Below, one piece after another: positions 30,732 to 47,034 of a stretch of 58,103 bases of DNA. The position numbers and the translations under genes are program-made. The notes beneath the pieces are model-generated. The model was not told the origin of the DNA. It did not search any database and saw nothing but the letters and a program-made list of their open reading frames with translations. Numbering within the stretch: the stretch's first letter is position 1; each line of letters begins with the position of its first letter. This DNA is from Nitrospirota bacterium (GTDB lineage Bacteria > Nitrospirota > Thermodesulfovibrionia > Thermodesulfovibrionales > UBA1546). The DNA lies in assembly GCA_016208915.1 (NCBI GenBank), contig JACQXE010000062.1, positions 1 through 58,103 of the forward strand, written 5' to 3'.

Positions 30732-31952
30732 GTGCCCAATTACACCTATAGGGGAAGAACTAAGTCAGGGGAGATTGTAAGTGGTGTTATTGATGCCCCA
30801 ACAGCAGAGGCAGTCGCAGAGCAGCTTTTTTCAAAAGGGCACATACCTATAAAGATAGAAGCAGGAATCCATGATGACGTATCTCCTACAAGTACGGGGC
30901 TGGGGATTTTTGACAGGATAAAGACCGAAGACCTCATTGTTTTCAGCCGCCAGCTCGCAACCCTTATAACAGCAGGTGTATCCTTCATAAAGAGCCTAGA
31001 TACGCTTGCTGAGCAGACGAGGAGCAGGAGGCTTAAGAGGATCATAGAGGATATAAGAAAAGACATAGAAGGAGGCAATTCTTTTTCTGATGCGCTGTCA
31101 AAATTCCCAGCTGTTTTTTCGCCTCTTTATGTGAGCATGATAAGGGTTGGCGAAGAGGCTGGAGTGCTCGATGATATACTGGAAAGATTGGCATCCCTTC
31201 TTGAGCACGATGCGGCAACACATGCAAGAATAAAGGCAGCAACACGGTATCCATTGATAGTGGTAATCAGCATAACAATAGCCTTCTTTGTGCTTACAAC
31301 ATTTGTCGTCCCTAAATTTGCAGCATTGTATCAGTCCTCAAAGGTTGAGCTTCCATTGCCGACGCGCATGCTTATTTTTACGAATAAAGCAATAAGAGGC
31401 TACTGGCCGATAATAATAGGAGCTGTGGCAGGTCTTGTCTTTGGGATAAAAGGATATATAAAAACACCATCAGGCAGATGGAACTTGGACAAGATGAAGT
31501 TAGGAATACCGATAATAGGGGCTGTTGTTGAAAAAACGGTCATGTCAAGATTTGCAAGGATTTTTTCTACGCTATACAAAAGCGGTATCCCAATACTTCA
31601 CGCCCTTGAGATAGTTTCAGGGACGCTTGGCAATGTAATTATAGCGAGGGCTGTCGGAGTGATTAAAGAAAGCGTTAGAGAAGGAAAGGGCATTGCGCAG
31701 CCGATGGCTAACACAAAGGTGTTTCCTCCCATGGTGACCCAGATGGTTGCTGTCGGAGAGGAGACAGGCGCTCTCGATAATATGCTCACGAAGGTTTCTG
31801 ATTACTATGACCTTGAGGTAGAGTATTCAATAAAGAATCTTTCCACCACCCTTGAACCTCTACTATTGGTTTTACTGGCAGGCATGATACTATTCCTGGC
31901 GCTGGGGATATTCCTTCCAATATGGGACATGATACGCGTTATGAGAGGATAA
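30732..31952 (+). CDS. pilC: Type IV pilus / type II secretion inner-membrane platform protein
   Basis: A 406-residue polytopic inner-membrane protein that couples the PilB/GspE ATPase to pilin assembly. It starts with GTG (30732) directly after the ATPase stop, reading MPNYTYRGRTKSGEIVSGVI. Two T2SSF domains are seen: DLIVFSRQLATLITAGVSF with FSDALSKFPAVFSPLYVSMI, and the second starting FARIFSTLYKSGIPILHALE. Three membrane segments occur (about 170-195, 220-240, 375-400). The ATPase and platform are adjacent but no pilin, prepilin peptidase or secretin gene is in view. Confidence 0.92.
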   Translation: MPNYTYRGRTKSGEIVSGVIDAPTAEAVAEQLFSKGHIPIKIEAGIHDDVSPTSTGLGIFDRIKTEDLIVFSRQLATLITAGVSFIKSLDTLAEQTRSRRLKRIIEDIRKDIEGGNSFSDALSKFPAVFSPLYVSMIRVGEEAGVLDDILERLASLLEHDAATHARIKAATRYPLIVVISITIAFFVLTTFVVPKFAALYQSSKVELPLPTRMLIFTNKAIRGYWPIIIGAVAGLVFGIKGYIKTPSGRWNLDKMKLGIPIIGAVVEKTVMSRFARIFSTLYKSGIPILHALEIVSGTLGNVIIARAVGVIKESVREGKGIAQPMANTKVFPPMVTQMVAVGEETGALDNMLTKVSDYYDLEVEYSIKNLSTTLEPLLLVLLAGMILFLALGIFLPIWDMIRVMRG

Positions 31953-33280
31953 AATTTGCATTTTTGCGGAGGAGATTCTATCTCGGTCTCTCTGTTTTCC
32001 TGCCGGTGTTTTTTTCTGCCTTTGCCTTAGCCGCTCCACTTATCTTTCTGATGAAATTGAAGGCAGCGCTGCGAAGTCGCATTGTCAGCGCAGGAGAACT
32101 TTTAGCTGTTTATGAGACTGCTGAGCAGTGGACATACATCTTTACATTTGTAGCATTTGTTACCGGGCTGGTTGTTGCATACGGGCTTATAAAGCCTGCA
32201 AAGAGATTGCTCAGAGAAAAGACAAAAGACAAGGACATAGAAGAATTCAGCACACTCGGAAAAGAATTCACAGAGATAGCAACATCCTTCAGAAAATATG
32301 CATCCCTGCTTGAAAGCACAACAGGCGGTATAATGGTAGTCAGCAAAAAGGGAGAGATAACAATGGCGAATCCGTATGCATGTTATATACTGGGGCATAC
32401 AGAGCCTGATATAGTTGGCAGAAATATCAATGCGCTGCTTGATATATCGAGGGATTTTACACAGGCGATGAAAGGAGAGATTATGACCGCAGAACTCAAT
32501 ACAGTAATAATGGGAGAAAACCGTGCGATAGGATATACAATTTCTCCGATAAAAGGAAGGGACGCAATCGAAGGGGCTGTACTTAATTTTATTGACACCA
32601 CGAAGATCAAAGAGATGCATTATGAAATGCAGAAGACAGAGAGGCTTGCAAATATAGGGACACTGGCGATGGAAGTTGCACACGAGGTCAGAAACCCACT
32701 CGCTGCGATTAAAGGGCTTGCACAGCTTATAGGAGAGGACCTACAAACAGATGACCATAAGAAGGTCTATATAGATACGATACTAAAAGAAACAGAGAGG
32801 CTTAATATGGTTGTCGATACTATCTTCGAGAAAAAAACTGCGCTTCCCAGCAAAGAAAGTCTCAAGGAAATAATACATAAGGTGGTGTTTCTGTGCAGTT
32901 TTGCAGTAAAGGATAAAGCTGTGAAAGTGACAGAGGATTACGACGAATCAGCAGGCAAGATGCAGGTATCAGACGAGAAATTCTTTCATGCAATCTACAA
33001 CATAGTTTTGAACGCATATGAGGCGGTTGATAAAGAGGGCGAGATAAATATAAGGACAGAGAAGATAGGGAACAAGATGTTAATTGAGGTCTCCAATAAT
33101 TCCGAGATAAACCCTGAAATAATGATGGACAAGATATTTGATAAAGATATGACAACCAAGGGAGCAGGGCACGGAATAGGGCTGAAGATAGCGAGGGATG
33201 CAATAAGGGGTATCGGCGGCGATATAAAGATAGAGAGTTTTGATGGCAAGACAAAGGTTATAATCCAGCTTCCGGCTTGA
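31922..33280 (+). CDS. Membrane PAS-domain sensor histidine kinase (NtrB/PilS-like)
   Basis: A 452-residue kinase. Two membrane segments (about 19-44 and 69-90) flank a short periplasmic loop, then a PAS domain (about 125-225, STTGGIMVVSKKGEITMANP), the H-box AHEVRNPLAAIKGLAQL with the phospho-accepting His, and an HATPase domain with NIVLNAYEAV (N-box) and GAGHGIGLKIARD (G-box). The start at 31922 lies 31 bases inside pilC; a later start around residue 15 cannot be excluded. It belongs with the NtrC-type regulator at 34562, from which it is split only by an opposite-strand gene. Confidence 0.88.
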   Translation: MGHDTRYERIKFAFLRRRFYLGLSVFLPVFFSAFALAAPLIFLMKLKAALRSRIVSAGELLAVYETAEQWTYIFTFVAFVTGLVVAYGLIKPAKRLLREKTKDKDIEEFSTLGKEFTEIATSFRKYASLLESTTGGIMVVSKKGEITMANPYACYILGHTEPDIVGRNINALLDISRDFTQAMKGEIMTAELNTVIMGENRAIGYTISPIKGRDAIEGAVLNFIDTTKIKEMHYEMQKTERLANIGTLAMEVAHEVRNPLAAIKGLAQLIGEDLQTDDHKKVYIDTILKETERLNMVVDTIFEKKTALPSKESLKEIIHKVVFLCSFAVKDKAVKVTEDYDESAGKMQVSDEKFFHAIYNIVLNAYEAVDKEGEINIRTEKIGNKMLIEVSNNSEINPEIMMDKIFDKDMTTKGAGHGIGLKIARDAIRGIGGDIKIESFDGKTKVIIQLPA

Positions 33281-33281
33281 G

Positions 33282-34481
33282 TTACAACCTTTTTCTGAAC
33301 TGCACAAAAAAATGCTCTTTGATTTTCTCACATGTGCTGCGTCTTATCCACTGGTCTAAATCTATTTTCACTGAATGCTCAAGGTCTTCGTTGAATACAT
33401 CTGTCATATGCTGTCCGAACTCTTCATCGAGTATGCCGACATTGCCCTCATCATTCCATCTCAATGACTGAAAATCAAGATTTGCAGAACCTATAATGCT
33501 CCAGCAGCCGTCAAATACTGCTGTCTTTGCATGAAGGATATTCCCCTCATAGTTATAAATCTCAACCCCCCTCCTGAGCAGTTTTGTGAATGAGGATCTT
33601 CCTGCATAATGTGCCGCAGTTATATCGCCTCTGAAAGGCAGAAGCAGTTTAACGGTCACGCCTCTTCTTGCCGCTTCGGTAAGCGTGTCAACCATTCTGC
33701 GGCTTGGAGTGAAATAAGCCGTCGTAAAAAACATGCTCTGCCTTGCATGATTTATGCTGTAATATAACAGTCTTCTGAATTTTCTCCTGCCTCTGGCAGA
33801 GCTTGCAAATATGGGGAGAGCAGCCACCTTCTCTGATTCCTTAGATTCTGTATTGTTGCCGGCCGGAAACTGCTGTTTGCTGATGCACGATTTTATCGGG
33901 TCTCCGCCAAAGATTATCCAGCTTTTGACAAATTCATTGAGAAGTGAAAGGGCTATCGGACCCTCGAGGATTATTCCTGTATCTCTCCAGCCTTCCCTGT
34001 GTTTTTTAAAATAATACCCCCTGTATTCGTTTGCGATATTTAGTCCGCCTGTGAAGGCCTTTACGCCATCTATGATAATGAGTTTTTTATGGTCGCGGTG
34101 GACATATCTCAAAGGCGAGGTCCATTTGAACGGATGGGATGCCCTTACATTTATACCGGCATTCCTCAGTTCTCTCCAGAATTTCCGCTGAGTTTCGAAA
34201 GAGCCAAAATGGTCATAGAGGATATAGATGTTGATCCCTTCGGCAGCCTTCTTTTTCAGCAGGGTTGCCAATTCGGTTCCTGTCTCATCATCCCTGAATA
34301 TATAAAACTCAAGGCAGATAATTTTTTCTGCTGCTGAAATAGAATCGAATATAGTTTGAAACGACTCCCGTGCTCTTCTTAAAAGATGAACTTCGTTGCC
34401 GTTTACAAATCTGCTGTTATATAACCTTTCTATCTCGGATTTTGTGAATTTTGCGCTAGGGCCATTTTTGCTCAGCATCAT
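33282..34481 (-). CDS. Cardiolipin synthase-like phospholipase D
   Basis: A 399-residue protein with two PLD (HKD) motifs: VHRDHKKLIIIDGVKAFTGG in the first half and LHAKTAVFDGCWSIIGSANL in the second. Cardiolipin synthases condense two phosphatidylglycerols at the inner membrane; here the usual N-terminal membrane anchor is missing, as in the ClsB group. The start could be either Met of MMLSKNGPSAKFTKSE. It lies convergent with the PAS kinase (one base apart) and divergent from the NtrC-type gene. A role in phospholipid remodelling is likely; other PLD reactions are possible. Confidence 0.88.
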   Translation of the reverse strand: MMLSKNGPSAKFTKSEIERLYNSRFVNGNEVHLLRRARESFQTIFDSISAAEKIICLEFYIFRDDETGTELATLLKKKAAEGINIYILYDHFGSFETQRKFWRELRNAGINVRASHPFKWTSPLRYVHRDHKKLIIIDGVKAFTGGLNIANEYRGYYFKKHREGWRDTGIILEGPIALSLLNEFVKSWIIFGGDPIKSCISKQQFPAGNNTESKESEKVAALPIFASSARGRRKFRRLLYYSINHARQSMFFTTAYFTPSRRMVDTLTEAARRGVTVKLLLPFRGDITAAHYAGRSSFTKLLRRGVEIYNYEGNILHAKTAVFDGCWSIIGSANLDFQSLRWNDEGNVGILDEEFGQHMTDVFNEDLEHSVKIDLDQWIRRSTCEKIKEHFFVQFRKRL

Positions 34482-34561
34482 AAATAATTGCCGAAATAGT
34501 GTTTTCTGTCAATCCTTCTCTTTGGCTGTGCTAAAATATTACAGAAATGAGAGGAGCTTTT

Positions 34562-35944
34562 ATGCCATTCATTGAAGATGAACACAGGATACTGGTGGTG
34601 GACGACGATCCCAGCATGCAGTTTTTCCTCGGGGAACTCCTTAAGAAGGAAGGTCTCCGGTTCGATATTGCAGGCACAGGCACCGAAGCTATAGAGCGTC
34701 TGAAGAATAATGACTACAGCCTTGTCCTCCTTGATGAAAAGATACCTGAGATGAGCGGGACAGAGGTGCTCGGACATATAAAAAAAACAGGGTATCCGAC
34801 ACCTGTGATAATGATAACCGCATACGGTTCAAAAGAGCTTGCACTGAGGGCTATACAACAGGGCGCATACGATTTTTTTACAAAGCCTGTTGATATAGAT
34901 ATAGTAAGGACTGTGATCAGCAGGGCTATCGAGAGATATGAACTGCAAAGAGATCTGAATGCTCTGAAGACAGAAGGTACAGACAAAATTCTCCGGAATG
35001 AGATTATTGTCGAGAGCGATAATATGAAAAGGGCGCTTGAGCTTTCAAAAAAGGTAGCAGGCACAGATGTTACAGTGCTGATAACAGGGGAGAGCGGTTC
35101 GGGCAAGGAACTGATTGCAAGGACAATACACAAGTTAAGCGACAGGAGAGACAGTCCCTTCGTAAGCGTGAACTGCGCGGCAATTCCGGAGTCTCTTCTC
35201 GAATCAGAGTTTTTTGGCTATGAAAAAGGCGCATTTACAGGCGCTGCCAGACAACATATCGGAAAGTTTGAAAGGGCAGCTCAGGGCACTATCTTTCTTG
35301 ACGAGATTGGGGATCTTTCCTTTGGGCTTCAGGCAAAACTTCTAAGGGTGCTTCAGAATAAGGAGATAGAGAGACTTGGCAGTACAAAGCCGGTAAAGGT
35401 TGACATAAGGTTAATATCTGCAACAAATAAGGATCTGAATACCGCTATTGCTGAAGGAGGCTTCAGGGAAGACCTTTTTTACAGGGTAAGGGTTTTTGAG
35501 GTTAGTGTTCCGCCGCTCAGAGAAAGGAAAAAGGATATTCCCCTTCTTGCTGATCATTTTCTGAAGAAATACAGTAAAAGCATTGGCAAGGAAATCACCG
35601 GCATTTCTTCATCTGCAATAAGATTTTTTTTGGGTTACAACTGGCCGGGCAATGTGAGAGAGATGGAAAATCTCATACAGAGGGCTATTATTCTTGCAGA
35701 AGGAGATAAAATTACAGGGGAAACAGTAATTGAGCTTATGCATCTGGATGACAAAAGCAGACCCTTGGCGATAAATGTCAGAGAAAGGCTGGAAACAATA
35801 AAATCAGAGGAAGAGAAAAAACTAATAGTAGACGCATTAACAGAGACAAGATGGAAAAGGACAGATGCGGCAGCCCGCCTCGGCATCAGCAGGAAAAGCC
35901 TTTTCAACAAGATGAAAAAATACGGGCTGCTGATAAAACATTGA
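34562..35944 (+). CDS. NtrC-family sigma-54-dependent response regulator
   Basis: A 460-residue regulator: receiver domain (about 8-125, ILVVDDDPSMQFFLGEL, phospho-Asp in LVLLDEKIPEMSG, TAYGSKELALR), AAA+ domain with Walker A TGESGSGKELIARTIH, the sigma-54 contact loop GAFTGA, FLDEIGDL and the arginine region, and a C-terminal Fis-type helix-turn-helix (TDAAARLGISRKSLFNKMKK). All key residues are intact. ATG 34562 is chosen for the GAGAGGAGC ahead of it; the upstream ATG at 34547 would lie within that ribosome-binding site. Probable partner is the PAS kinase at 31922. The targets should have -24/-12 promoters; I saw no clear one in the window. Confidence 0.93.
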   Translation: MPFIEDEHRILVVDDDPSMQFFLGELLKKEGLRFDIAGTGTEAIERLKNNDYSLVLLDEKIPEMSGTEVLGHIKKTGYPTPVIMITAYGSKELALRAIQQGAYDFFTKPVDIDIVRTVISRAIERYELQRDLNALKTEGTDKILRNEIIVESDNMKRALELSKKVAGTDVTVLITGESGSGKELIARTIHKLSDRRDSPFVSVNCAAIPESLLESEFFGYEKGAFTGAARQHIGKFERAAQGTIFLDEIGDLSFGLQAKLLRVLQNKEIERLGSTKPVKVDIRLISATNKDLNTAIAEGGFREDLFYRVRVFEVSVPPLRERKKDIPLLADHFLKKYSKSIGKEITGISSSAIRFFLGYNWPGNVREMENLIQRAIILAEGDKITGETVIELMHLDDKSRPLAINVRERLETIKSEEEKKLIVDALTETRWKRTDAAARLGISRKSLFNKMKKYGLLIKH

Positions 35945-35958
35945 AGACACTCTGGGAT

Positions 35959-36960
35959 ATGAATACGCTCATTTCCTCGTATTGGGGAATGTATGCTATT
36001 CAAGCCGTGCTTCATTCAGCAATTGCCTCTGTAATCGTTGACTTTGCACTCATCGCCTGGGATATGAGAACACCGCACGTGAAGCAGCGGTTTCGCTTTA
36101 TGGTCATTTTTTTGCCGGTTGCATCGTTTCCCTTCTACCAGCTGATATTGCCGAGCAGGGGCAATGTGTATTTCAGGCTTGAGAGCCTGCTGGACAGCAA
36201 CAAATGGTTTTTTCTCGAACTGTGGGAGGGCATTCCAATGTTCGCAGTGTTTATTGGTATACTATTATTCACCTCTATCATCTTCATCATTCAGGAGCTT
36301 GTGCCCATAGTTTTAGACATACTGGAGCAGATGCGTGGGGCTAATGAGACGGTTGCTGATGAGGTGGAGGAGGAGTCCATGGTACAGAAAGTATTAAGTG
36401 CCATGGAGGACCTGCCGCTTGATGAGAAGTCCGTTGAGATCCTGAATGATGAAGATCTTGCACTTTTTTCATCTACAGGGCTGAACCCACGGATTTATGT
36501 ATCGACTGGGCTGATTAAGTCTTTTAGCACTGAGCATCTGCAGGCGGCCTTTGCCCATGAAATCGGCCATATCCAAAGGAGCAGAAAGCCTGTCCTTATT
36601 TTTGGATATATCTTAAGGGTATTTATGTTATATAATCCTATCGCCATGATTGAGTTCAGAAAACTAGTCGAGGAGGAGGAAAAAGTCTGCGACGATATTG
36701 CAGTTTCACTGACTGGCAAGCCTGAAGCCCTTTTCGAGGCAGTCGACATGCTCCGTCCAGCACCCGAGGACTACAATCTTGACAAAAACCCCAGAGGGAT
36801 TAGAGGCATCGCATCTGCGCTCGAACACTACAGCCACGACGTCCTTATGAAAAAAAGGGCTCGAAGAATCAGACAGCACCACCAAGACGACCCTTACTGG
36901 GGTATCCCCTATTTCGTTACTTTGGTGCTTATCGTTGGTATAAACTATTTTGTTGTGTAA
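35959..36960 (+). CDS. Membrane-embedded M48/M56-type zinc metallopeptidase
   Basis: A 333-residue integral membrane peptidase. Membrane segments occur at about 9-30, 40-58, 90-115, 215-235 and 312-330. The cytosolic or periplasmic catalytic part has the zinc motif FAHEIGHIQRSRK (HExxH, about 195-207) and a downstream VEEEEKVCDDIAV acidic segment able to give the third zinc ligand. ISTGL-like VSTGLIKSF before the motif is typical of BlaR1/M56 and HtpX-like enzymes. The ATG at 35959 gives MNTLISSYWGMYAIQAV; the longer frame overlaps the regulator and is not used. It opens the block that contains the small membrane proteins and cytochromes, so its substrate may be among them. Confidence 0.82.
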   Translation: MNTLISSYWGMYAIQAVLHSAIASVIVDFALIAWDMRTPHVKQRFRFMVIFLPVASFPFYQLILPSRGNVYFRLESLLDSNKWFFLELWEGIPMFAVFIGILLFTSIIFIIQELVPIVLDILEQMRGANETVADEVEEESMVQKVLSAMEDLPLDEKSVEILNDEDLALFSSTGLNPRIYVSTGLIKSFSTEHLQAAFAHEIGHIQRSRKPVLIFGYILRVFMLYNPIAMIEFRKLVEEEEKVCDDIAVSLTGKPEALFEAVDMLRPAPEDYNLDKNPRGIRGIASALEHYSHDVLMKKRARRIRQHHQDDPYWGIPYFVTLVLIVGINYFVV

Positions 36961-36961
36961 T

Positions 36962-37513
36962 ATGGAAATGTGGGAAAACAGGATAATGAAAACAATGCGT
37001 GGGTTGCTTTGGTTTACCATAATGGCTGGAGGGGTTATCGCGCTCTTAGCTACGGTGAACTGGCTGCCTTCCCTGACGCAGAAGGACTTTGCGCGGCAGT
37101 ATGGCAGCGTCGAGGATGCCAAAAGATCACTTGGGCTTGACAATGTCCATGTCCCTGCGTATTTCCCTGAAGGCATTTCCTGGCCGCCGTCCCTTGTCCT
37201 TGCACAGAAGAAACCCTACAAGGCGGTTGTGATGGAATTCAAGGATACAGAATCAATGAAGACTAAGCTGATTGTAATTCAGTCATCCATGCAGGGCAGC
37301 GATGTGCAGCTCCAGCGAATCACGCTGTCTGAATTGAAGAAAGAGACCCAATACCATTTGAAAGGCAAAATTGCCCTCCTTCAGGTCGGTACGTGTGACA
37401 ACAAGATGACATGTAGCAGGATGACATGGCAAGACCATAGCCTCCACTACACGGTTCTCTTTATGTCCTCCCCTTTTGAACTAATCAAAATAGCGGAAAG
37501 CATGATCCACTAA
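36962..37513 (+). CDS. Membrane-anchored protein of unknown function
   Basis: A 183-residue protein. One N-terminal membrane segment (about 13-32, GLLWFTIMAGGVIALLATV) is followed by a soluble domain of mixed strands, FPEGISWPPSLVLAQKKPYK and ESMKTKLIVIQSS, with a CDNKMTC pair that could form a disulphide. It resembles the DUF4367-like anchored domains in general wording, but I do not assign it firmly. It starts two bases after the peptidase stop, so it is likely its translational partner, perhaps a substrate or inhibitor (inference). Confidence 0.6.
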   Translation: MEMWENRIMKTMRGLLWFTIMAGGVIALLATVNWLPSLTQKDFARQYGSVEDAKRSLGLDNVHVPAYFPEGISWPPSLVLAQKKPYKAVVMEFKDTESMKTKLIVIQSSMQGSDVQLQRITLSELKKETQYHLKGKIALLQVGTCDNKMTCSRMTWQDHSLHYTVLFMSSPFELIKIAESMIH

Positions 37514-37780: not shown

Positions 37781-38173
37781 ATGGTTACACAGAGTCAGCA
37801 GATGCAGATGACAGGAGAAGGGACGACATTCGCTACGAGCGGCAACGAACCGCAGGAGGAGAGAATGCAGCTCTTCAGAAACAAAGTTTTGAGGTTATCG
37901 GGACTGACAGCGCTTTCTATACTTTTTCTTTTCGGGCTTGTGCTGTCAATTATATTTCCTTATGGCATAGGGGTAGCGGTTTTTGTCTGGATTATTGCCC
38001 TGCTCGGAGCGCTCTGCGGGGCGGGATTAGCATGTTTCAACCTCGTGAAGGATATGCTCGGCAAAACCGCAACCTTTGGGTACGCACCCACTACGGCGTA
38101 CATGACCGGGAAAAAGATGAAGAAGAGACGGAGAGAAGAATCCTCGGAAGAGGAAAAGACAGACAAACAATAA
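37781..38173 (+). CDS. Small two-helix membrane protein with AYMTG tail motif (1 of 4)
   Basis: A 130-residue protein with a polar N-terminus, two membrane helices (about 38-59 and 62-86) and a strongly basic then acidic C-terminal tail. The tail carries YAPTTAYMTGKKMKK at about 101-115. Equivalent tails occur in the next three genes, giving a shared [WY]-x-P-x-x-A-Y-[FM]-[ST]-G-x-[RK]-K pattern, although the rest of the proteins differ. By the positive-inside rule the tail faces the cytoplasm. No known family is recognised. The start has AAAGGAGGA and lies after the three palindromes; it is probably the first gene of the operon. Confidence 0.75.
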   Translation: MVTQSQQMQMTGEGTTFATSGNEPQEERMQLFRNKVLRLSGLTALSILFLFGLVLSIIFPYGIGVAVFVWIIALLGALCGAGLACFNLVKDMLGKTATFGYAPTTAYMTGKKMKKRRREESSEEEKTDKQ

Positions 38174-38227
38174 GAGCTTTTGTACTGGGCAATAAGCATG
38201 CCCAGCTCTTCAAGAGGAGGTGCAGAA

Positions 38228-38671
38228 ATGGTCATATATAAAGGTGGAATGGTTGTAGAAAAAGGGTTGTACTGGAATCCCATGGACGGCCAGCGAGTTA
38301 ATGTGTTGGAGGATGGTATACTTCCGGGTGATGAAAACAAGAGTTATCTGAAGACATCAACGGTAGGTCTCCTTGCCATCGCACCTCTCTTTGGAATGAT
38401 GTATGTGATGTTCCTGCCGCTCTTTGGGATAGGCGTATTCCTTATCTCTGGGCTGGTCTTTATCATTGACACCCTTGCCGCAGTTGCTATAACTGGCGTC
38501 CGGGTTTGCAGCAGGACTAACAGCAGAAGCGTAGTCTCCAACTGGAACCCATCAAGGGCATATTTCTCTGGCGTCCGTAAAAAGGAGAAGACAGGCATCA
38601 GGCATACATTGAGTGTCAAGGAGGGAACGACGAACTCACTGACTCCACGAGAGAAAAGAGATAGATCATGA
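38228..38671 (+). CDS. Small two-helix membrane protein with AYFSG tail motif (2 of 4)
   Basis: A 147-residue protein. A cytoplasmic N-terminal part contains VEKGLYWNPMDGQRVNVLED (about 10-29), then helices at about 45-66 and 68-93, then the tail WNPSRAYFSGVRKKEK (about 106-121). ATG 38228 has the good ribosome-binding site GGAGGTG; the longer frame from 38180 is not needed. The tail matches those of the flanking genes. It overlaps the third member by four bases. Function is unknown; its place before the cytochrome genes suggests an accessory or assembly role. Confidence 0.75.
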   Translation: MVIYKGGMVVEKGLYWNPMDGQRVNVLEDGILPGDENKSYLKTSTVGLLAIAPLFGMMYVMFLPLFGIGVFLISGLVFIIDTLAAVAITGVRVCSRTNSRSVVSNWNPSRAYFSGVRKKEKTGIRHTLSVKEGTTNSLTPREKRDRS

Positions 38672-39051
38672 AATCAGGTAAGGCAGCAAAAAAAGCGGTA
38701 TATATTGGAGCTGGAGCAGGACTGGCCCTTTTCGGACTAATCGGCCTGCTCCGCAGCTCATTATTAGGGGGAATCATAGGAATGAAAATAGCGGGAGGAC
38801 TATTCGGTTTCCCATTGACATCAAATCTCCTTCCGAGGTTGACCGTAGGCATATCTATGCTTCTGGGCGTCCTCGTAACAGGCAGTGTTTTTGCTGCTTG
38901 TGGAGCGATGACGGGCTGGACGATAGAGCAGGTGATTGACTCCTTGAAAACCTCAAAGGTGTTCAGATACAACCTGAATACCTCCTTCTTCTCAGGGAGT
39001 ACGAAAAAGCTCAGACACAACAAAAAGAGAGAGAAGGGAAAAGATGGATAA
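38668..39051 (+). CDS. Small membrane protein with SFFSG tail motif (3 of 4)
   Basis: A 127-residue protein with glycine-rich hydrophobic helices (about 11-28, 32-50 and 58-84) and the tail YNLNTSFFSGSTKK (about 101-114) followed by a very basic end. The motif is the most divergent of the four (Leu for Pro, Ser-Phe for Ala-Tyr) but keeps F-S-G and the lysines. It is coupled to the preceding gene by an ATGA overlap. No family recognised. Confidence 0.72.
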   Translation: MKSGKAAKKAVYIGAGAGLALFGLIGLLRSSLLGGIIGMKIAGGLFGFPLTSNLLPRLTVGISMLLGVLVTGSVFAACGAMTGWTIEQVIDSLKTSKVFRYNLNTSFFSGSTKKLRHNKKREKGKDG

Positions 39052-39098
39052 TTCTCATGCTACCTTTGGTAGCCCATAACAAACCAGGAGGCACTTAC

Positions 39099-39500
39099 AT
39101 GCACACGCTTTTCGATTTTATCAGTAATGTTAACGCAATGCAGTATGGGCTTGCGCTTTTTTTCATCCTTGGTTTCATCATCTTTTATGAGATACTGAAG
39201 CCAAAGCCGTTCGAGGGATTGCTGAAATCAGCAGCAGATGACGTCAAATTTATTAAAGCACAGAGAAAAGAGACATCTGTTCAGCTTATCAAAAAAATAG
39301 CATTGGCACCGATGTACATCCTGTTTTACCTCGCTGCGGTGCCAGTCCTCTTTGTCCAAGGGTTTTCCATACCGCTCGGCAAGGGGATCGCCACTGTGAC
39401 ATCCGCTGGTTGGAGCCCTGTGCGCGCCTATTTCACCGGAAGCAGGAAAGCGAAGAAAGCCCAGGGGAACGACCCCGGACAACAGACTAACAGACTTTAG
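39099..39500 (+). CDS. Small two-helix membrane protein with AYFTG tail motif (4 of 4)
   Basis: A 133-residue protein starting MHTLFDFISNVNAMQYGLAL behind AGGAGGCAC; the 14 residues that a start at 39057 would add are unlikely. One helix lies at about 15-33, a basic amphipathic segment with KSAADDVKFIKAQ follows, and a second helix is at about 68-90. The tail WSPVRAYFTGSRKAKK is at about 105-120. It precedes the first cytochrome by 19 bases. Small helical subunits of this size occur in Hmc- and Cbc-type complexes, so a structural subunit role is possible. Confidence 0.75.
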   Translation: MHTLFDFISNVNAMQYGLALFFILGFIIFYEILKPKPFEGLLKSAADDVKFIKAQRKETSVQLIKKIALAPMYILFYLAAVPVLFVQGFSIPLGKGIATVTSAGWSPVRAYFTGSRKAKKAQGNDPGQQTNRL

Positions 39501-39519: not shown

Positions 39520-39987
39520 ATGAACAGATATACTGTGAAAATACCGTGGCTTTTGGTCTGTACGGTACTGGCTTCTTTGGGGCTGCTTGCCGTACTATCC
39601 ATGTCACCGGCAAGGGTTGAAGGAGTGAATATGCCCGGCACTATCGTCATCAAATACATCGAAAACAGGTTCGGGCCAGTTACTTTTAACCACACAATGC
39701 ATACGTCATTGGCAGAAAGTTGCGGCATATGCCATCACCAGCACAATGACAAAATAAGGTCTGGGTGCAAAGATTGCCACTCTCTGAATGCCGATCAATT
39801 TAAGGCCTCAGTAAAAAATGGGTTTCTCCCCTGCAGCGGATGCCATACAGACTACTCTCCAGAGATGCCTGAGATGCCAGGGCTGAAGGTCGCATTTCAC
39901 AAGAAGTGCTTCCAATGCCATGTGGGTATCGGAGAACTCGGCTCCTCGCCCGGCGGATGCGTCAAAACGTGTCATACAATGAAATAA
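39520..39987 (+). CDS. Five-haem class III-like cytochrome c, membrane-anchored
   Basis: A 155-residue cytochrome with an N-terminal anchor or signal (about 9-27). Haem motifs are CGICH (68), CKDCH (83), CSGCH (105), CFQCH (130) and a CVKTCH (147) that has three residues between the cysteines, as found in some cytochromes c3/c7. VTFNHTMHTS and VAFHKKC supply likely distal histidines. It should work in the periplasm as the electron entry or exit of the complex encoded downstream (Fe-S protein, NrfD-like subunit, 13-haem cytochrome, cytochrome b). Spacing and strand put it in the same operon as the four small membrane proteins. Confidence 0.88.
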   Translation: MNRYTVKIPWLLVCTVLASLGLLAVLSMSPARVEGVNMPGTIVIKYIENRFGPVTFNHTMHTSLAESCGICHHQHNDKIRSGCKDCHSLNADQFKASVKNGFLPCSGCHTDYSPEMPEMPGLKVAFHKKCFQCHVGIGELGSSPGGCVKTCHTMK

Positions 39988-40060: not shown

Positions 40061-41053
40061 ATGTCTGAGATTAAAAAGGGCCGGCAGACAGATGGCTCTG
40101 AGCACGGCATGACACAAGACGCCGCAGGCCCTTCAAGCGGGCTCACGAGGCGGAACTTCCTTTCGATGTCAATGCTTGCTGGGTGTGCTGCGATAGGTGT
40201 TCCTTCGCACGCTCAGGCTATGCCTGAGTTCGAGGGCTGGCCCAAGAGCTACGGCATGCTGACTGACTTCACTGCATGCGTTGGATGCAGGAGCTGCGAA
40301 AGAGCATGCAATGAAGCCAACAAAATGCCTGCACCAGATAAGCCCTTTGACGACGGTTCGGTCTTTGAAGAACATCGTTGGCCCTCGGCAAAGGCCCTCA
40401 CTGTGGTCAACCGATACAAAAACCCAGGCAATCCCTCCAGCCCCGTGTACCGAAAGATCCAGTGCAACCACTGCCTGGAGCCTGCATGTGCAACCGCATG
40501 CCCCATTCACGCGTACACGAAGACACCGGAGGGTGCGGTCATCTACAATAAGGACCTCTGCTTTGGCTGCAGATATTGCGTTATCGCGTGCCCGTTTAAC
40601 ATGCCGGGCTACGATTACGAAAGTCCGTTCGATGCAAAGATCGTCAAATGCATCTTCTGTTACGGCAGGATTAAAGAAGGGCAAATCCCTGCCTGTGCAG
40701 AGGCCTGTCCGGGCGGGGCACTTACCTTCGGGAGAAGAGCAGATCTGCTAAAACTCGCCCGAAAAAGGATCGTGGATTACCCAGAAAAATACATAGACCA
40801 TATTTATGGAGAGTACGAAGTCGGGGGCACTTCATGGATTTACATCTCTGGCGTGCCGTTTGAACATCTCGGTTTTCCTACAAACCTTCCAAAGAAGCCT
40901 CTCATCGAGCTTTCAAAGGGCTACCTCTCCATGGTGCCTGTGATTTTCACGACATTTCCTGCATTATTCGGTGCGTTATATGCTATGATGCACGATAAGG
41001 CTGCAGGAAAAGAGGATAGCCACGACAAACATCAGGAGGTGCACAATGGGTAA
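40061..41053 (+). CDS. Tat-exported four-cluster ferredoxin subunit (HmcB/HybA-like)
   Basis: A 330-residue electron-transfer protein. The twin-arginine signal LTRRNFLSMSMLAGCAAIG (about 28-46) directs folded export; the LAGC within it also resembles a lipobox. Four cysteine groups for [4Fe-4S] clusters follow: CVGCRSCERAC, CNHCLEPACATAC, CFGCRYCVIAC and CIFCYGRIKEGQIPACAEAC. A C-terminal membrane helix lies at about 294-313. It should sit on the periplasmic face and pass electrons between the NrfD-type subunit and cytochromes. The start has AAGGAGG, and the end overlaps the next gene by eight bases. Confidence 0.92.
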   Translation: MSEIKKGRQTDGSEHGMTQDAAGPSSGLTRRNFLSMSMLAGCAAIGVPSHAQAMPEFEGWPKSYGMLTDFTACVGCRSCERACNEANKMPAPDKPFDDGSVFEEHRWPSAKALTVVNRYKNPGNPSSPVYRKIQCNHCLEPACATACPIHAYTKTPEGAVIYNKDLCFGCRYCVIACPFNMPGYDYESPFDAKIVKCIFCYGRIKEGQIPACAEACPGGALTFGRRADLLKLARKRIVDYPEKYIDHIYGEYEVGGTSWIYISGVPFEHLGFPTNLPKKPLIELSKGYLSMVPVIFTTFPALFGALYAMMHDKAAGKEDSHDKHQEVHNG

Positions 41054-42302
41054 CGACGTTCAATATACGACTCAATCTCCCGACTCTTTGAATGGATTCA
41101 AAGCTTGGTTTATGAACAAGCTGTTTATGGGTATGAGCATGTCGGAGTACTCCAGGTCACTTGCCACCCCTTTTAATTTTGTCGCTGCCTTGATCCTTGT
41201 GGTTTCTGCACCCATTTTTACGATACGGTATGTCAAGGGGCTTGCCACGGTGCTTCACGCCACTAACGAATACCCATGGGGACTCCTGCTCAGTTGGGGA
41301 ATCTTTGCCGGAGAGCCGCTGTTCGCAGCCGGTTTTGTGGTGGCAGCAGCTTACTATATCTTCGGGATGAAGTCCTACAGGTCGTTAGTGCGCATTGCTG
41401 TGCTTGGCGGTATGCTGGGATATATGTTTGCAGCCTCATATCTTCTGATCGACCTTGGCCGTCCGTGGCGCATTTACTATCCCATGCTCATCAACTTTGG
41501 GACGTCCTCAATCCTGTTCATCGTGGCATGGCACGTATCGCTTTACATTACAGTTCAGCTTTTAGAGTTCTCGCCGGCTATTCTTGAATGGCTGGGCTCG
41601 AAACGGCTGCACAGGTGGGCGACTTCCATAACTGTTGCGCTCATTATCGGCGGAGTTATCCTCTCTACAGTGCACCAGTCCGCCCTCGGGGCTCTGTATC
41701 TCCTGACGCCAGGCAAGCTCCATCCTCTGTGGTACTCCTCACACCTTCCACTGCTTTTCTTCAGTTCCGCGATTTATGCAGCTATGTCGTTCGCTATCCT
41801 GCTTGCTTTTGTAGCCGTGCGATATTTCAAGGACAAGTGCGATAAGGAGTTTCTCGAGAATACGCCATCGCTGACGCTGGGTCTGGGCAAAGGGGCTGCG
41901 GTGTCGATGTATGTATACTTCGCCATCAATATCCTCGCTATGGCGCAAGACAACAAGTGGGGGCTTCTGTTCACACCATACGGCTACTGGTACCTCGTGG
42001 AGTTGCTTGGTTTTGTGGCGATACCGATGGGTCTGTTTACTATCGGGGTGAAGAATAAAAGACTGAAGCTGACCAGATTCTCTGCGCTGTATGCGGTTAT
42101 CGGGATTGTCCTAAACAGGGTCAATGTCAACCTGATTGTCTTCAACTGGAATCAACCTGACCATTTTCACCACATAATCCCGCCGTGGACTGAGCTCATG
42201 ATGATCGCAGCTATGATAACGCTTAATGTGCTTATTTTCAGGTGGATAGTCAACAGGTTCCCGGTAACACGCGAGCTGCACGGGTACAGGGGTATGCACT
42301 AG
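41046..42302 (+). CDS. NrfD/HmcC-like quinone-binding membrane subunit
   Basis: A 418-residue protein with about ten membrane helices of the NrfD/PsrC/HmcC family. These proteins bind menaquinol near the periplasmic side and exchange electrons with a ferredoxin-type subunit, here the one encoded just upstream. YPWGLLLSWGIFAGEPLFAA and the following YLLIDLGRPWRIYYPML are typical wording. LHPLWYSSHLPLLFFSSAIY is the further conserved stretch. Length and order are as in Hmc and in several Cbc-type complexes of Geobacter. The proposed complex would be menaquinol:cytochrome c oxidoreductase or the reverse. Confidence 0.92.
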   Translation: MGNDVQYTTQSPDSLNGFKAWFMNKLFMGMSMSEYSRSLATPFNFVAALILVVSAPIFTIRYVKGLATVLHATNEYPWGLLLSWGIFAGEPLFAAGFVVAAAYYIFGMKSYRSLVRIAVLGGMLGYMFAASYLLIDLGRPWRIYYPMLINFGTSSILFIVAWHVSLYITVQLLEFSPAILEWLGSKRLHRWATSITVALIIGGVILSTVHQSALGALYLLTPGKLHPLWYSSHLPLLFFSSAIYAAMSFAILLAFVAVRYFKDKCDKEFLENTPSLTLGLGKGAAVSMYVYFAINILAMAQDNKWGLLFTPYGYWYLVELLGFVAIPMGLFTIGVKNKRLKLTRFSALYAVIGIVLNRVNVNLIVFNWNQPDHFHHIIPPWTELMMIAAMITLNVLIFRWIVNRFPVTRELHGYRGMH

Positions 42303-42334
42303 CCGTGGTGGAGGTTGATTCCAAGGGAAACAGC

Positions 42335-43780
42335 GTGAGATCTGTAGCATATATAATATGGGTCGCACTCATTTTCTGCTTCGCGTTTCCTGCGTGGTCG
42401 TCCTCTGTTCAGGACAGCGTAGAGGATCAGGAAAAAAGGCAATGTCTTAAATGTCATGAGGAGCAGGGTTCGGTGAAGAAATTCCCTGACGGGGACTTTG
42501 TCTCGACTTATGTAGACACAAATGCCCTTACTATGTCAGTCCATCGGTCGCTCCAGTGCACCGCGTGCCACAAGGAGTTCTCCGACCAGCGCCATCCAGA
42601 CCGTGCCTTTAGAAACAAGCTCCAGTTCAGGATAAAAGAGTCTCACGTATGCAGAGACTGTCATGCTGTCGAGAAAATCAAGTTCCGGACTATTCATGAG
42701 GCACTGTTTAAAAAAGAAGGGGTTGGAGAGGCGGTCGTTTGCACCGATTGCCATAGCGCCCATGCCGTTACCCCTGTAACGGGGGGCAATGTATCAACAT
42801 CGGAGGAGAAGTACTGTCTACGCTGTCACGCCTCTGAGAAGCACATGGTCTTCAAAAGCGGGAAGTCTGTCTCGATACGTGTCCAAGTCGCTGAACTCAG
42901 GAACTCCCCTCACAGAAATGTCAGTTGCTCGGACTGCCACTTCGGCTTCTCTGCTGAGGAGCATCCCTACAGGCGGTTCAGTTCCGAACGCCAATACCAA
43001 CTTGCGTCATCCGAGATCTGCAGGCGGTGCCATTTCGACAAATATTCAAAGTTCTCCGAAAGCATCCACAATGCTATGCTGAGCATAGGGAAGCTGGAGG
43101 CGCCCACCTGTATTGATTGCCATGGCGGACACGCGGTTTTATCACTCAGCGAAAACAGGCTTGCGATTGTGCAGAAATGTAAGACATGCCATAATGCGGT
43201 CTACGACATATACGCCCGGAGCATCCATGGGAGCGCCCTGTTCAAAGAAAACAACAAAGATGTTCCAATCTGCATCGACTGCCATTCATCCCACAGTATC
43301 AAGAACCCTTTCTTATCGGACTTCCACGACTTTATACCGGACATGTGCAGCAAATGCCATTCGAACGCAGTGATCATGGGCAAGTATGGGCTGTCCACTG
43401 ATGTGGTGAAGACCTATCTCTCAGATTTCCACGGCGTAACACTTGGCCTTTACAGAAAAGAGGCGCAGAAACGCTATCGGCCCGATGATCGACCCATGGC
43501 CGTCTGCACAGACTGCCATGGCACTCATGAGATCGCCAGCGTTTCGGGCACCGACATACAGACGTTAAAGAAGACTTTACAGAAACGGTGTCAGACGTGT
43601 CACACCAACGCAACCGCAAGCTTCCCCGATGCATGGCTCTCCCACTATAAGCCAAGCTTTACAAACGCCCCCGGGGTTTTTATCGTTGAACAGTTCTACA
43701 AGATTATGATGCCGCTCATGGTGGTGGGTTTGCTGTTCCAAGTCTTTCTGCACATCTGGCGATACCTCGTGAGCAGGTAA
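42335..43780 (+). CDS. 13-haem membrane-anchored cytochrome c
   Basis: A multihaem cytochrome of about 481 residues. Thirteen CxxCH motifs are present in order: CLKCH, CTACH, CRDCH, CTDCH, CLRCH, CSDCH, CRRCH, CIDCH, CKTCH, CIDCH, CSKCH, CTDCH, CQTCH. Most are followed by further histidines suitable as distal ligands. A C-terminal helix (FYKIMMPLMVVGLLFQVFLH) anchors it in the inner membrane with the haems in the periplasm. GTG at 42335 gives a signal peptide (SVAYIIWVALIFCFAFPAWS) and is preferred; an upstream start inside the previous gene is less likely. The cytochrome is presumably a wire from the membrane complex to periplasmic or outer-membrane partners. Confidence 0.9.
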   Translation: MRSVAYIIWVALIFCFAFPAWSSSVQDSVEDQEKRQCLKCHEEQGSVKKFPDGDFVSTYVDTNALTMSVHRSLQCTACHKEFSDQRHPDRAFRNKLQFRIKESHVCRDCHAVEKIKFRTIHEALFKKEGVGEAVVCTDCHSAHAVTPVTGGNVSTSEEKYCLRCHASEKHMVFKSGKSVSIRVQVAELRNSPHRNVSCSDCHFGFSAEEHPYRRFSSERQYQLASSEICRRCHFDKYSKFSESIHNAMLSIGKLEAPTCIDCHGGHAVLSLSENRLAIVQKCKTCHNAVYDIYARSIHGSALFKENNKDVPICIDCHSSHSIKNPFLSDFHDFIPDMCSKCHSNAVIMGKYGLSTDVVKTYLSDFHGVTLGLYRKEAQKRYRPDDRPMAVCTDCHGTHEIASVSGTDIQTLKKTLQKRCQTCHTNATASFPDAWLSHYKPSFTNAPGVFIVEQFYKIMMPLMVVGLLFQVFLHIWRYLVSR

Positions 43781-43792
43781 GGAGGGAACACT

Positions 43793-44506
43793 ATGGTATC
43801 GAGAGAGTCGTCAGGCGATAAGGAATATATCAGGAGGTTCAGTTTCTGCAGGGTCGTCGAGCATCTTGCACTCATTGTGCTCTTTGTCATTCTGGCGGTA
43901 ACTGGGCTTTCCCAGAAGTTCCACTTCTTAGGTGTTTCACAGTCCCTTATCATCGCCATGGGAGGGATCGACGATGTGAGGTTTCTCCACCATGTCGTTG
44001 GCATACTTTTCATGGTGCTCACTGCACAGCATATCTTTGTAAATCTCGTGGGTATCGTTTTCCAGCAATGGGAGCCCTCTATGCTTATTACGTTCAAGGA
44101 TGCCCATGATGCCCTGTATAATGTCAGATATTACTTGGGCCTCGTCGGCCAGCCGGCGATGTGTGGTAGATATAACTACAAGGAAAAATTCATCTATTGG
44201 CTCATACTCTTAGGAGGCATCCAGCAGATCATCACAGGGTTTATCCTTTGGTTCCCTGTTGCTGCGACAAAATACCTTCCAGGCCAATTCATCCCGATTT
44301 CAAAGGCCATACACACGAACGAGGCAATGCTGATTTTCCTCATAATAGCTGTCTGGCACATCTACGATTCCATGTTCAGCCCTGAAGTATTTCCTCTCAA
44401 CACGAGCATATTTACAGGATATATTGAAAAAAAACGAATGCAGCAGGAGCATCCCTTGGAGCTGGCACAACTCATAGAGGCAGGGGAAGAAGAGTTGTCG
44501 GATTGA
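43793..44506 (+). CDS. Di-haem-type cytochrome b subunit (FdnI/b561-like)
   Basis: A 237-residue membrane protein with about four to five helices and histidines placed for b haems: FCRVVEHLALIVLFVILAV, RFLHHVVGILFMVLTAQH, and AIHTNEAMLIFLIIAVWHIY near the end. This pattern is that of formate-dehydrogenase gamma/cytochrome b561-like subunits that link quinone to periplasmic cytochromes. It starts 12 bases after the 13-haem cytochrome, with AAGGAGGG, and completes the complex. The C-terminal tail is polar and cytoplasmic. Confidence 0.88.
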   Translation: MVSRESSGDKEYIRRFSFCRVVEHLALIVLFVILAVTGLSQKFHFLGVSQSLIIAMGGIDDVRFLHHVVGILFMVLTAQHIFVNLVGIVFQQWEPSMLITFKDAHDALYNVRYYLGLVGQPAMCGRYNYKEKFIYWLILLGGIQQIITGFILWFPVAATKYLPGQFIPISKAIHTNEAMLIFLIIAVWHIYDSMFSPEVFPLNTSIFTGYIEKKRMQQEHPLELAQLIEAGEEELSD

Positions 44507-44540: not shown

Positions 44541-46370
44541 ATGCAGAAAAAAATTCTCATCGCTATAATCCTTAACGTTATTGTAATATCGGCTACGCTT
44601 GGAATAATAAGCTACTTCGCAGTCAATGAAAGCATTAACCGATCTCTGCAGGACAGGCTCACACTCGCCAGGATCATCTCGAACTATGTCGAAGTCTTTC
44701 TGAATAGAAATCTCAACAGGCTCTACGACGTCTCTCTCTCAGGGAAGATTAACCTGGAAGACGATGATTGGCAGCCTGAGAAAAGGATGCTCGAAACCGC
44801 CTATAATTATTCGCTTTTTACTGAAGGCGTATTCCTTCTTGATAAACATGGCAATGAACTGTTGACCTATCCTCCGCACGTCGAGTATTTCTCGAATCTC
44901 ACTTATATCAATTACGTAAATCAGGTTCTCCAGTATGGGAAATCGGTAATCTCTAACATATACACAATCGAACCGATCAAAAAAAAGGTGATATTCATAA
45001 TGGTGCCGCTTAAGGACAGCGAAGGCATGATCACCGGTATTGTGGGCGGAACTCTTGGCCCAACAGAACATTTTCTTAATCAGCTCCTACAGAGCGGCAA
45101 GATTGAAAATAACAGTTATATAGAGATCATTGACTCGAATGAAATTGTAGTCGCTTCGGATAATCCTTCGCGCATATTTCAGCACCACAAACATGATTCT
45201 ATTCTAAGTAAGATGATCATTGAAGGCAAGGCTGGAATTCTGGAATGCAGACATGGTTTTTCCTCTCCTGATTCTGCAAAGAAACCGATTGACCGTCTTG
45301 CATTCGTTCCTTTAAGTGCGGCTCCATGGGGGGTTATTGTGGGACAGTCGGAGAAGGAAGTTTTTGAAACCTCGATGAAACTGAAGAGATGGTTTCTATC
45401 TTTTGCAATTATATTTGTAGCGTCATCAACAGTGTTTGCTGTAGGCTTAAGCAGAAATATTGTAAAGCCAATAAAGTCACTAATTGCGGCCACAAACAGA
45501 ATAGCAGAGGGAGACCTGTCAAAAGCCGTGGGCAATTTTGGAAGCGATGAGACTCTCATGCTCAGCAGAAGTTTCGATGACATGAGATTGAGGCTGGCAG
45601 AATCCCGCGATAGCATCCAGAGACACAACTTAGAGCTGGAACAGCGGGTTGCCCAAAGGACAAAGGAACTTGAAGAAAACAGAAAAAAACTTGCAGACCT
45701 TCTTATGGAGGTGATGAGCGCCCAGGAAGAGGAGCGAAAGAGAATAGCAAGGGAACTGCATGATGACACGAGTCAGTCTTTGAATGCAATGCTCATGTCT
45801 CTCGATGCCCTGAGCATGTCACTTGACGGGAATGATATGCTCAAGCACCGGCTTGGGCAACTAAGGGAACATTCAATGCTGACGCTGCATGGGGTACACC
45901 AGATGATAAAAGACTTGAGGCCTCCTGTGCTTGATGACCTTGGGCTTGAGTCTGCAATAAGATGGTGCCTCGAAAGGCATCTTGGCGAAAAGGGAATCCA
46001 GTTTTATTTCAAAACCACCGGAAAGTGTAAGGAGATACAGACCTGTAGCGGTGCTGTTCTCAGCTGTGCAAAGATTGAGCTTATGTTATTCAGGGTGATA
46101 CAGGAAGCCATAATTAATGTGTCAAAACATGCCAATGCAGAGAATGTGCTTGTATCCCTTGCATTTCATGATTCATCCCTTGAGATAACAATAGAGGATG
46201 ATGGAGAAGGATTTGATATTCAAAAGGTCTTTGCTTCTTTCAAAACAGGCAAAAACAGAGGGTTTGGGCTTCTCGGCATGAAGGAACGCATAGCTCTCGT
46301 AGGAGGCAGATTAAGAATATGTTCAAGACCTCAAGAGGGAACGATGATAAGCGCCTGTATACCTCTTTAA
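44541..46370 (+). CDS. Cache-type sensor histidine kinase (NarX-like, HisKA_3)
   Basis: A 609-residue kinase. An N-terminal helix (about 5-27), a large periplasmic Cache-like sensor (about 35-280), a second helix (about 285-306), a HAMP linker (IVKPIKSLIAATNRIAEGD) and a coiled coil lead to the HisKA_3 box EEERKRIARELHDDTSQSLN with the phospho-accepting His, and an HATPase domain with DDGEGFDIQKV and GFGLLGMKERI. It pairs with the NarL-like regulator 13 bases downstream. Its position straight after the cytochrome operon suggests control of that operon by a periplasmic redox or small-molecule signal. Confidence 0.92.
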   Translation: MQKKILIAIILNVIVISATLGIISYFAVNESINRSLQDRLTLARIISNYVEVFLNRNLNRLYDVSLSGKINLEDDDWQPEKRMLETAYNYSLFTEGVFLLDKHGNELLTYPPHVEYFSNLTYINYVNQVLQYGKSVISNIYTIEPIKKKVIFIMVPLKDSEGMITGIVGGTLGPTEHFLNQLLQSGKIENNSYIEIIDSNEIVVASDNPSRIFQHHKHDSILSKMIIEGKAGILECRHGFSSPDSAKKPIDRLAFVPLSAAPWGVIVGQSEKEVFETSMKLKRWFLSFAIIFVASSTVFAVGLSRNIVKPIKSLIAATNRIAEGDLSKAVGNFGSDETLMLSRSFDDMRLRLAESRDSIQRHNLELEQRVAQRTKELEENRKKLADLLMEVMSAQEEERKRIARELHDDTSQSLNAMLMSLDALSMSLDGNDMLKHRLGQLREHSMLTLHGVHQMIKDLRPPVLDDLGLESAIRWCLERHLGEKGIQFYFKTTGKCKEIQTCSGAVLSCAKIELMLFRVIQEAIINVSKHANAENVLVSLAFHDSSLEITIEDDGEGFDIQKVFASFKTGKNRGFGLLGMKERIALVGGRLRICSRPQEGTMISACIPL

Positions 46371-46383
46371 TTTTTAGGTAAGT

Positions 46384-47034
46384 ATGTCCAAGACAAAGAT
46401 ACTCATAGTTGATGACCATGCACTTGTGAGAGAAGGGATAACCGCCATTCTGAGGTTCTACGATGATGTCGAGATACTGGGCGAGGCCTCAGACGGGAAA
46501 GAGGCAATTGACAAGGCAAGCAAACTTAATCCTGATGTCATTCTTATGGACATAGCAATGCCTGGCCTCGGGGGTCTTGAGGCAACTTTTGAGATTAAAA
46601 AAAAGAACCCTGAAATAAAGATACTTATATTGAGCCAGTATGATGACAAGGAGTATATAAGCAGATTTCTGAAAGCAGGTGTTTCCGGTTATATACTCAA
46701 GAAGGCGGTAGGGACAGAATTAATAAATGCCATAAGGGCAGTTGCACGAGGTGAGTCATATCTTCACTCTGCAATTGCATCCAGCGTAATAGACGGTTAT
46801 ATTGGGAGAAAGACCATCGCTGTTGAAGACCCATACGAAAAGCTCACGGATAGGGAGAAACAGATACTGAAACTCATTGCTGAGGGACACACTCACAAGG
46901 AAATAGCCGACATATTGGGGATAAGCGCTAAGACAGCAATCGCCCATCAGACAAATATCTCTGAAAAGCTCGATATACACGCGCGGGCAGGCCTTATAAA
47001 ATTTGCAATCACAAAAGGGATAATCAAACTATAG
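46384..47034 (+). CDS. NarL-family response regulator
   Basis: A 216-residue two-domain regulator. The receiver domain (about 4-120) has ILIVDDHALVREGITAI, phospho-Asp in VILMDIAMPGLGG and the Lys of YILKKAVG. The LuxR-type helix-turn-helix (about 150-212) reads LTDREKQILKLIAEGHTHKE with the recognition helix ISAKTAIAHQTNI. The C-terminal LINAIRAVARGESYL linker is standard. It follows its kinase by 13 bases, so they form a two-component pair. It overlaps nothing; zapA is convergent after nine bases. Confidence 0.93.
   Translation: MSKTKILIVDDHALVREGITAILRFYDDVEILGEASDGKEAIDKASKLNPDVILMDIAMPGLGGLEATFEIKKKNPEIKILILSQYDDKEYISRFLKAGVSGYILKKAVGTELINAIRAVARGESYLHSAIASSVIDGYIGRKTIAVEDPYEKLTDREKQILKLIAEGHTHKEIADILGISAKTAIAHQTNISEKLDIHARAGLIKFAITKGIIKL

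Follow-up and report, generated by a model that had tools for sequence, protein, structure and literature searches.

Several described systems resemble the locus studied here. In Desulfovibrio, the high-molecular-weight cytochrome (Hmc) transmembrane complex combines HmcB, HmcC and HmcD subunits with a cytochrome b and a large cytochrome of 16 haems, all from one operon. In the PEP-CTERM/exosortase and LPXTG/sortase systems, several proteins have a short C-terminal motif located before a hydrophobic segment and a basic end, and the genome profile of the motif tracks the gene of a dedicated membrane protease. M56 peptidases of the BlaR1/MecR1 type have several transmembrane (TM) segments, an HEXXH motif, a downstream acidic region and a predicted periplasmic domain. 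FdnI, finally, is the gamma subunit of formate dehydrogenase-N (FDH-gamma). We compared these systems with an operon from a Nitrospirota bacterium, located in a window of 58,103 nucleotides (the whole stretch of DNA that was analysed, a complete contig). Its genes, all on the + strand, are the following.

35851–36960, +: M56/M48-type membrane zinc peptidase, HEIGH motif intact (PF05569, 35.3 bits, cut-off 31; PF01435, 28.7 bits, cut-off 20.3)
36950–37513, +: DUF4367-like protein (hereafter DUF), one TM followed by a domain that is probably periplasmic and has a conserved pair of Cys residues (PF14285, 13–14.6 bits, below the cut-off of 22.1)
37781–38173, +: gene 1, KGG-family paralogue without the N-terminal KGG domain, tail YAPTTAYMTGKKMKK (KGG profile 2.5e-10 over the second half)
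38228–38671, +: gene 2, full KGG-family protein with GG..KG.YWN...LPGD domain, hydrophobic segment and tail WNPSRAYFSGVRKK (KGG profile E 4.9e-38; alignments)
38668–39051, +: gene 3, chimera of residues 1 to ~95 from a tail-less family and a grafted tail FRYNLNTSFFSGSTKK (body comparison)
39099–39500, +: gene 4, HmcD-like first half, extra hydrophobic segment and tail WSPVRAYFTGSRKAKK (alignments; NF045712 matches in homologues)
39520–39987, +: tetrahaem class III cytochrome c (c3), optional in the operon (PF02085, 1.3e-8)
40061–41053, +: HmcB-like iron-sulphur subunit, optional (NF045715, 383.4 bits, cut-off 420)
41046–42302, +: HmcC-like NrfD subunit, optional (NF045714, 389.3 bits, cut-off 550; PF03916)
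42242–43780, +: 13-haem cytochrome with C-terminal TM, start uncertain (13 CxxCH; alignment)
43793–44506, +: FDH-gamma-like cytochrome b with four TMs, ending in a loosely similar stretch FPLNTSIFTGYI (PF01292, 45.4 bits; aligns with FdnI, 1kqf_C)
44541–46370 and 46384–47034, +: two-component sensor kinase and NarL-type regulator (conserved downstream in most relatives)

Gene order and relation to described systems

The first-pass annotation had noted a zinc peptidase gene upstream and electron-transfer genes downstream of four small genes, and comparison of relatives revealed that this neighbourhood is a conserved operon and not a chance arrangement. The conserved order is M56 peptidase, DUF, one to four tail proteins, an optional block of cytochrome c3, HmcB-like and HmcC-like NrfD subunits, 13-haem cytochrome, FDH-gamma-like cytochrome b, sensor kinase and response regulator. 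A shorter version has M56, DUF, KGG, 13-haem cytochrome, cytochrome b, kinase and regulator, without the c3, HmcB, HmcC and HmcD-type genes. Upstream of the peptidase gene lie a second kinase (31922–33280) and a sigma-54-type regulator (34547–35944), with a phospholipase-D-like gene between them on the other strand (33282–34481).

Because it contains HmcB-, HmcC- and HmcD-like genes, the last as one half of gene 4, together with a large multihaem cytochrome and a cytochrome b, we call the unit Hmc-like. It was not filed as Hmc proper because the NCBIfam models tested for HmcB and HmcC scored below their cut-offs. It differs from Hmc in having a cytochrome of 13 instead of 16 haems and a cytochrome b of the FDH-gamma type, and in additionally possessing the M56 peptidase, the DUF, the KGG proteins and the tail. 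No HmcF-like (HdrD-like) gene was apparent among the operon genes examined, and no match to NF045713 was obtained with the 13-haem cytochrome; the tetrahaem c3 matches this model weakly. The cytochrome b aligns with FdnI over residues 13–222, and a stretch of the FPLDTSIFTG type is conserved behind the last TM of its homologues; most of 28 homologues end there in a FSPEVFPLDTSIFTGYIS-type sequence that is loosely tail-like. This stretch was set aside as evidence on the tail, since it lies in a region common to the FDH-gamma family and its Pro-to-Gly spacing differs from that of the tail motif.

The peptidase, whose true start is probably downstream of position 35851, was assigned to M56 on the basis of a PF05569 score above the cut-off and the presence of HEXXH, which is kept in 28 of 28 homologues. 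It shares with BlaR1/MecR1 the multi-TM architecture, the zinc motif, the downstream acidic region and a predicted periplasmic domain, which is a separate protein here. Unlike them, the 349-residue M56 protein gives no match to a penicillin-binding sensor domain and is linked to multihaem cytochromes, not to a beta-lactamase system; the NCBIfam BlaR1 model scored 14.3 bits against a cut-off of 400, and the protein was not placed among the BlaR1 beta-lactam sensors. The adjacent DUF was likewise not placed in the DUF4367 family proper, given its PF14285 score. In its alignment C138 is invariant and C144 is present in at least 90% of sequences.

A C-terminal tail shared by four small membrane proteins

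It had been claimed that four adjacent small membrane proteins share a C-terminal tail motif, and both the coordinates and the tails of the tandem genes 1 to 4 were verified. In each of them a hydrophobic segment is followed by [WY]xPxx[AS][YF][FLM]xG and then by Lys/Arg residues, the fit being looser in gene 3. Of the four proposed starts (37781, 38228, 38668 and 39099), clear ribosome-binding sites precede 37781, 38228 and 39099, and all four tail copies of the window belong to one operon. Searching the whole 2.5 Mb genome with a degenerate DNA pattern of the motif gave three matches, all in the four-gene cluster, with gene 3 (YNLNTSFFSG) falling outside the strict pattern; the reversed pattern, used as a control on the same genome, gave none.

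A loose regular expression was then applied to six-frame open reading frames of 47 homologous loci (494,197 residues). It produced 88 matches, of which 84 were C-terminal tails of these small proteins and 4 were unrelated. Of the 98 proteins that the family profiles recruited, 84 have the motif, and the remaining 14 are mostly near-variants of the motif or cytochromes caught by the profiles. None of 247 other proteins with a tail after the last TM, taken from the 1331 other predicted proteins of the loci, carries it, even though 80 of these tails are basic; as the loci were picked via a tail protein, this exclusivity is relative to other proteins of the same loci, and conservation is to be read within the family. 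On the question of whether homologues are devoid of the motif, or whether basic tails in general have it at an equal rate, these counts favour the finding. In 35 HmcD-type homologues W105, P107, Y111 and G114 are invariant and A110 is found in at least 90%. The motif is near-invariant across Nitrospirota in both the KGG and the HmcD-type families, the basic end varies between homologues in length and sequence, and some KGG paralogues (L055, L057) have lost the motif.

The bodies preceding the tail had been described as otherwise different. This is correct for gene 3, whose body is unrelated to the others, but not for genes 1 and 2, which are paralogues, and only in part for gene 4, in which the tail and the preceding hydrophobic segment are shared with gene 2 (34% over 49 aa, E 5e-5); the proposal that all four bodies are unrelated was rejected accordingly. 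Proteins of the KGG family consist of an N-terminal GG..V.KG.YWN..tG.RV....G.LPGD...YY domain, predicted by AlphaFold2 as four strands (pLDDT about 84–89), a hydrophobic segment and the tail. The N-terminal domain is absent from gene 1 and kept by its homologues in loci L054, L057 and L058. The NF045712 HmcD model was matched at E up to 0.01 by 27 of the 35 HmcD-type homologues (best E 5e-7) and not by the window copy, and the two scores seen were both under the cut-off of 34 bits. Neither the KGG family nor genes 1 to 3 reached the cut-off of any Pfam or NCBIfam family, sequence searches of the PDB returned weak, chance-like matches only, and fold comparison of two AlphaFold2 models found nothing at E up to 0.001. 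Two protein families are thus defined here that have no Pfam or NCBIfam model at cut-off, namely KGG and HmcD plus tail. The open-licence papers and family libraries searched contained no account of the tail or of the KGG family.

Gene 3 is a chimera. Its residues 1 to ~95 are 52% identical (E 2e-30) to a stand-alone protein encoded in another genome; that protein terminates soon after this point, and most matches to this body family, which is present in 58 of 149 relatives, stop near residue 97. Three further copies exist in the host genome (G000:C18, C28, C86), and among the copies whose open reading frames were read the tail is on the window copy only. In two relatives (L053, which is genome G018, and L054) the small gene right before the HmcD-type gene encodes a KGG body with a matching tail, ...SFFSG..KK. 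The simplest reading of this comparison would be that the body of gene 3 was replaced and the tail retained. The tail is joined to at least three different protein bodies. Members of the gene-3 body family are widespread small two-TM, glycine-rich proteins, frequently in tandem pairs (L088:4166-4489 and 4535-4876; L049:8773-9463).

Distribution of the tail and of its operon

Searches of relatives with gene 4 found it in 19 of 61 genomes. A tail profile matched 69 of 396 genomes of the phylum, and removal of four matches that were marginal or outside the tail (G143, G036, G293, G362) left 65. The DUF, which also served as proxy for the adjacent M56 gene, is present in 65 of the 396 genomes, and 63 are common to DUF and tail, even where the tail genes are unlinked (counts ignore kinship). 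The mismatches are G007, with the DUF at a contig end, G126, which is 74% complete, G210, with an M56 gene in the locus, and G130, with 8% contamination. The full-length 13-haem cytochrome tracks the same genomes as tail and DUF; shorter related cytochrome matches (families f9, f10) were found without either. The tail is thus almost confined to genomes with a haem-based electron-transfer system that has its own membrane protease. KGG genes also occur in a small clade reached via a genome named Deltaproteobacteria, in 3 of 148 genomes of that phylum.

Most system-bearing genomes have one M56-DUF pair and several tail proteins; KGG copies number up to five in several genomes, many of them unlinked. 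Five genomes (G064, G073, G103, G082, whose core operon is cut by a contig end, and G285) have no intact KGG gene in the core operon and single KGG genes elsewhere; in G285 (L194:7710-9500) the 13-haem cytochrome is preceded by a degenerate KGG reading frame that continues into it in frame, and the intact KGG genes are located at other places in that genome. G278 has tails together with an M56-DUF pair apart from the cytochrome operon. In G046 (L198) a deletion extends from M56 into the end of NrfD, and cytochrome b, 13-haem cytochrome and regulator are also broken, so that the whole unit is decaying together.

Candidate roles of the tail

The charge-free stretch that precedes the motif measures 34–36 residues in the median, long for one helix, and reaches 51 residues in gene 1. 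The tail has a net positive charge in 26 of 26 KGG-type rows and 29 of 35 HmcD-type rows. If KGG, HmcD-type and gene 1 proteins formed a hairpin with its two ends on the cytoplasmic side, they would agree with the positive-inside rule, whereas AlphaFold2, with shallow alignments, predicts one long helix and a low-confidence tail. The tail is probably on the cytoplasmic side.

Retention of the motif on differing bodies had been taken to suggest a common binding partner, a sorting signal or a processing site. The near-invariance, the third body and the co-occurrence even of unlinked genes support a selected, portable module with a common partner, and leave a sharp question, whether this cytoplasmic-side C-terminal motif is a docking address or a protease address. 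The electron-transfer machinery probably uses the tail as a docking or processing tag of an undescribed kind. Our favoured reading, to which we give not quite an even chance, is a docking tag on the cytoplasmic side, carried by accessory subunits of a divergent Hmc-like complex. A hydrophobic segment of ~35 residues, perhaps a hairpin, would anchor these small subunits in the membrane, with the tag just past it at the cytoplasmic face. KGG, HmcD-type and gene-3 proteins would bind one common site through the aromatic/Pro/Ala-Tyr/Gly motif and the basic residues. This site would lie on the membrane part of a complex of 13-haem cytochrome and FDH-gamma-like cytochrome b, with optional c3, HmcB-like and HmcC-like subunits, that would transfer electrons between the quinone pool and haems in the periplasm; we infer the topology, the binding site and the electron-transfer role. 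Docking is supported by the conserved motif, its graft onto one foreign body, its absence from background tails, the conserved operon and the co-occurrence in genomes. It is further supported by tail genes that survive elsewhere in genomes whose operon copy has gone, by the joint decay of the unit in G046, and by net positive tails behind a long hydrophobic stretch. Co-occurrence also points to a partner in the core set (M56, DUF, 13-haem cytochrome, cytochrome b, kinase, regulator), and the optional Hmc-like subunits are unlikely partners, since loci and genomes that lack them also have tails. Against docking stand the KGG copies, whose number and frequent lack of linkage are odd for a fixed subunit, the KGG paralogues that lack the motif, the single long helix with low-confidence tail modelled by AlphaFold2, and the fact that co-occurrence points to cytochrome b, the M56 peptidase and the DUF alike (counts ignore kinship).

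In a rival reading the M56 peptidase would recognize the tail on the cytoplasmic side and cut there, the Cys-pair DUF acting as periplasmic sensor, so that the small proteins would be matured or destroyed according to redox or haem status. Such a C-terminal sorting-type system would have its motif past the TM, as in all homologues aligned, and not before it as in PEP-CTERM and LPXTG proteins. In BlaR1 the M56 zinc site is cytoplasmic. The single M56-DUF pair facing several tail proteins, the intact zinc motif and the tails of G278, where the pair is separate from the cytochromes, fit this reading, and a redox-controlled proteolytic role is possible because of the zinc motif in all 28 homologues and the invariant and near-invariant DUF cysteines. 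However, in nearly all loci the M56-DUF pair lies inside the 13-haem/cytochrome b operon, so co-occurrence is not specific to the peptidase, and most tail bodies are of one family, as opposed to the many substrates of classical sorting systems; processing is possible but unlikely, and docking on the cytochrome complex is favoured over it. Rather doubtful is the fuller proposal of an undescribed tag-and-reader system, in which a dedicated M56 protein with its Cys-pair periplasmic sensor would read the motif on several small proteins and control assembly or turnover of the multihaem respiratory complex. Aromatic and basic flanks are common at TM ends, and the variable basic end would suit a tail that pins the segment to the cytoplasmic face of the membrane without any specific partner. 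Anchoring by itself would not call for the fixed spacing and near-invariance of W, P, Y and G, the absence from other tails, basic ones included, or the confinement to genomes with a single gene set, and this reading is improbable. Most improbable is that the tail is a functionless remnant of recent duplication. The kinship of genes 1 and 2 and the segment common to genes 2 and 4 are consistent with simple paralogy; yet the bodies diverged around a near-invariant tail, the gene-1 lineage dropped its N-terminal domain and kept the tail, and the gene-3 body is unrelated, which together indicate that selection acts on the tail. The gene-3 chimera, with the matching tail on a KGG body at the same operon position in relatives, is the strongest single argument for selection on the tail itself, and with the phylum-wide conservation it largely refutes paralogy.

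The tail would mark partner proteins of a multihaem electron-transfer system in Nitrospirota and offers a sequence handle for accessory subunits, including unlinked ones. By inspection, the neighbours of orphan KGG genes have no common function. In two genomes (L145:6696-7079, L147:6567-6989) an orphan KGG gene lies upstream of a putative gene for a nitrogen-regulatory P-II protein, the neighbours of other orphans being unrelated. Beside a KGG gene in two further loci (L143:6988-8904, L196:7389-9230) is a second type of multihaem cytochrome, which has a KGG-like N-terminal membrane segment (GPLLGLLYIMFMPF) and was caught by the family profiles.
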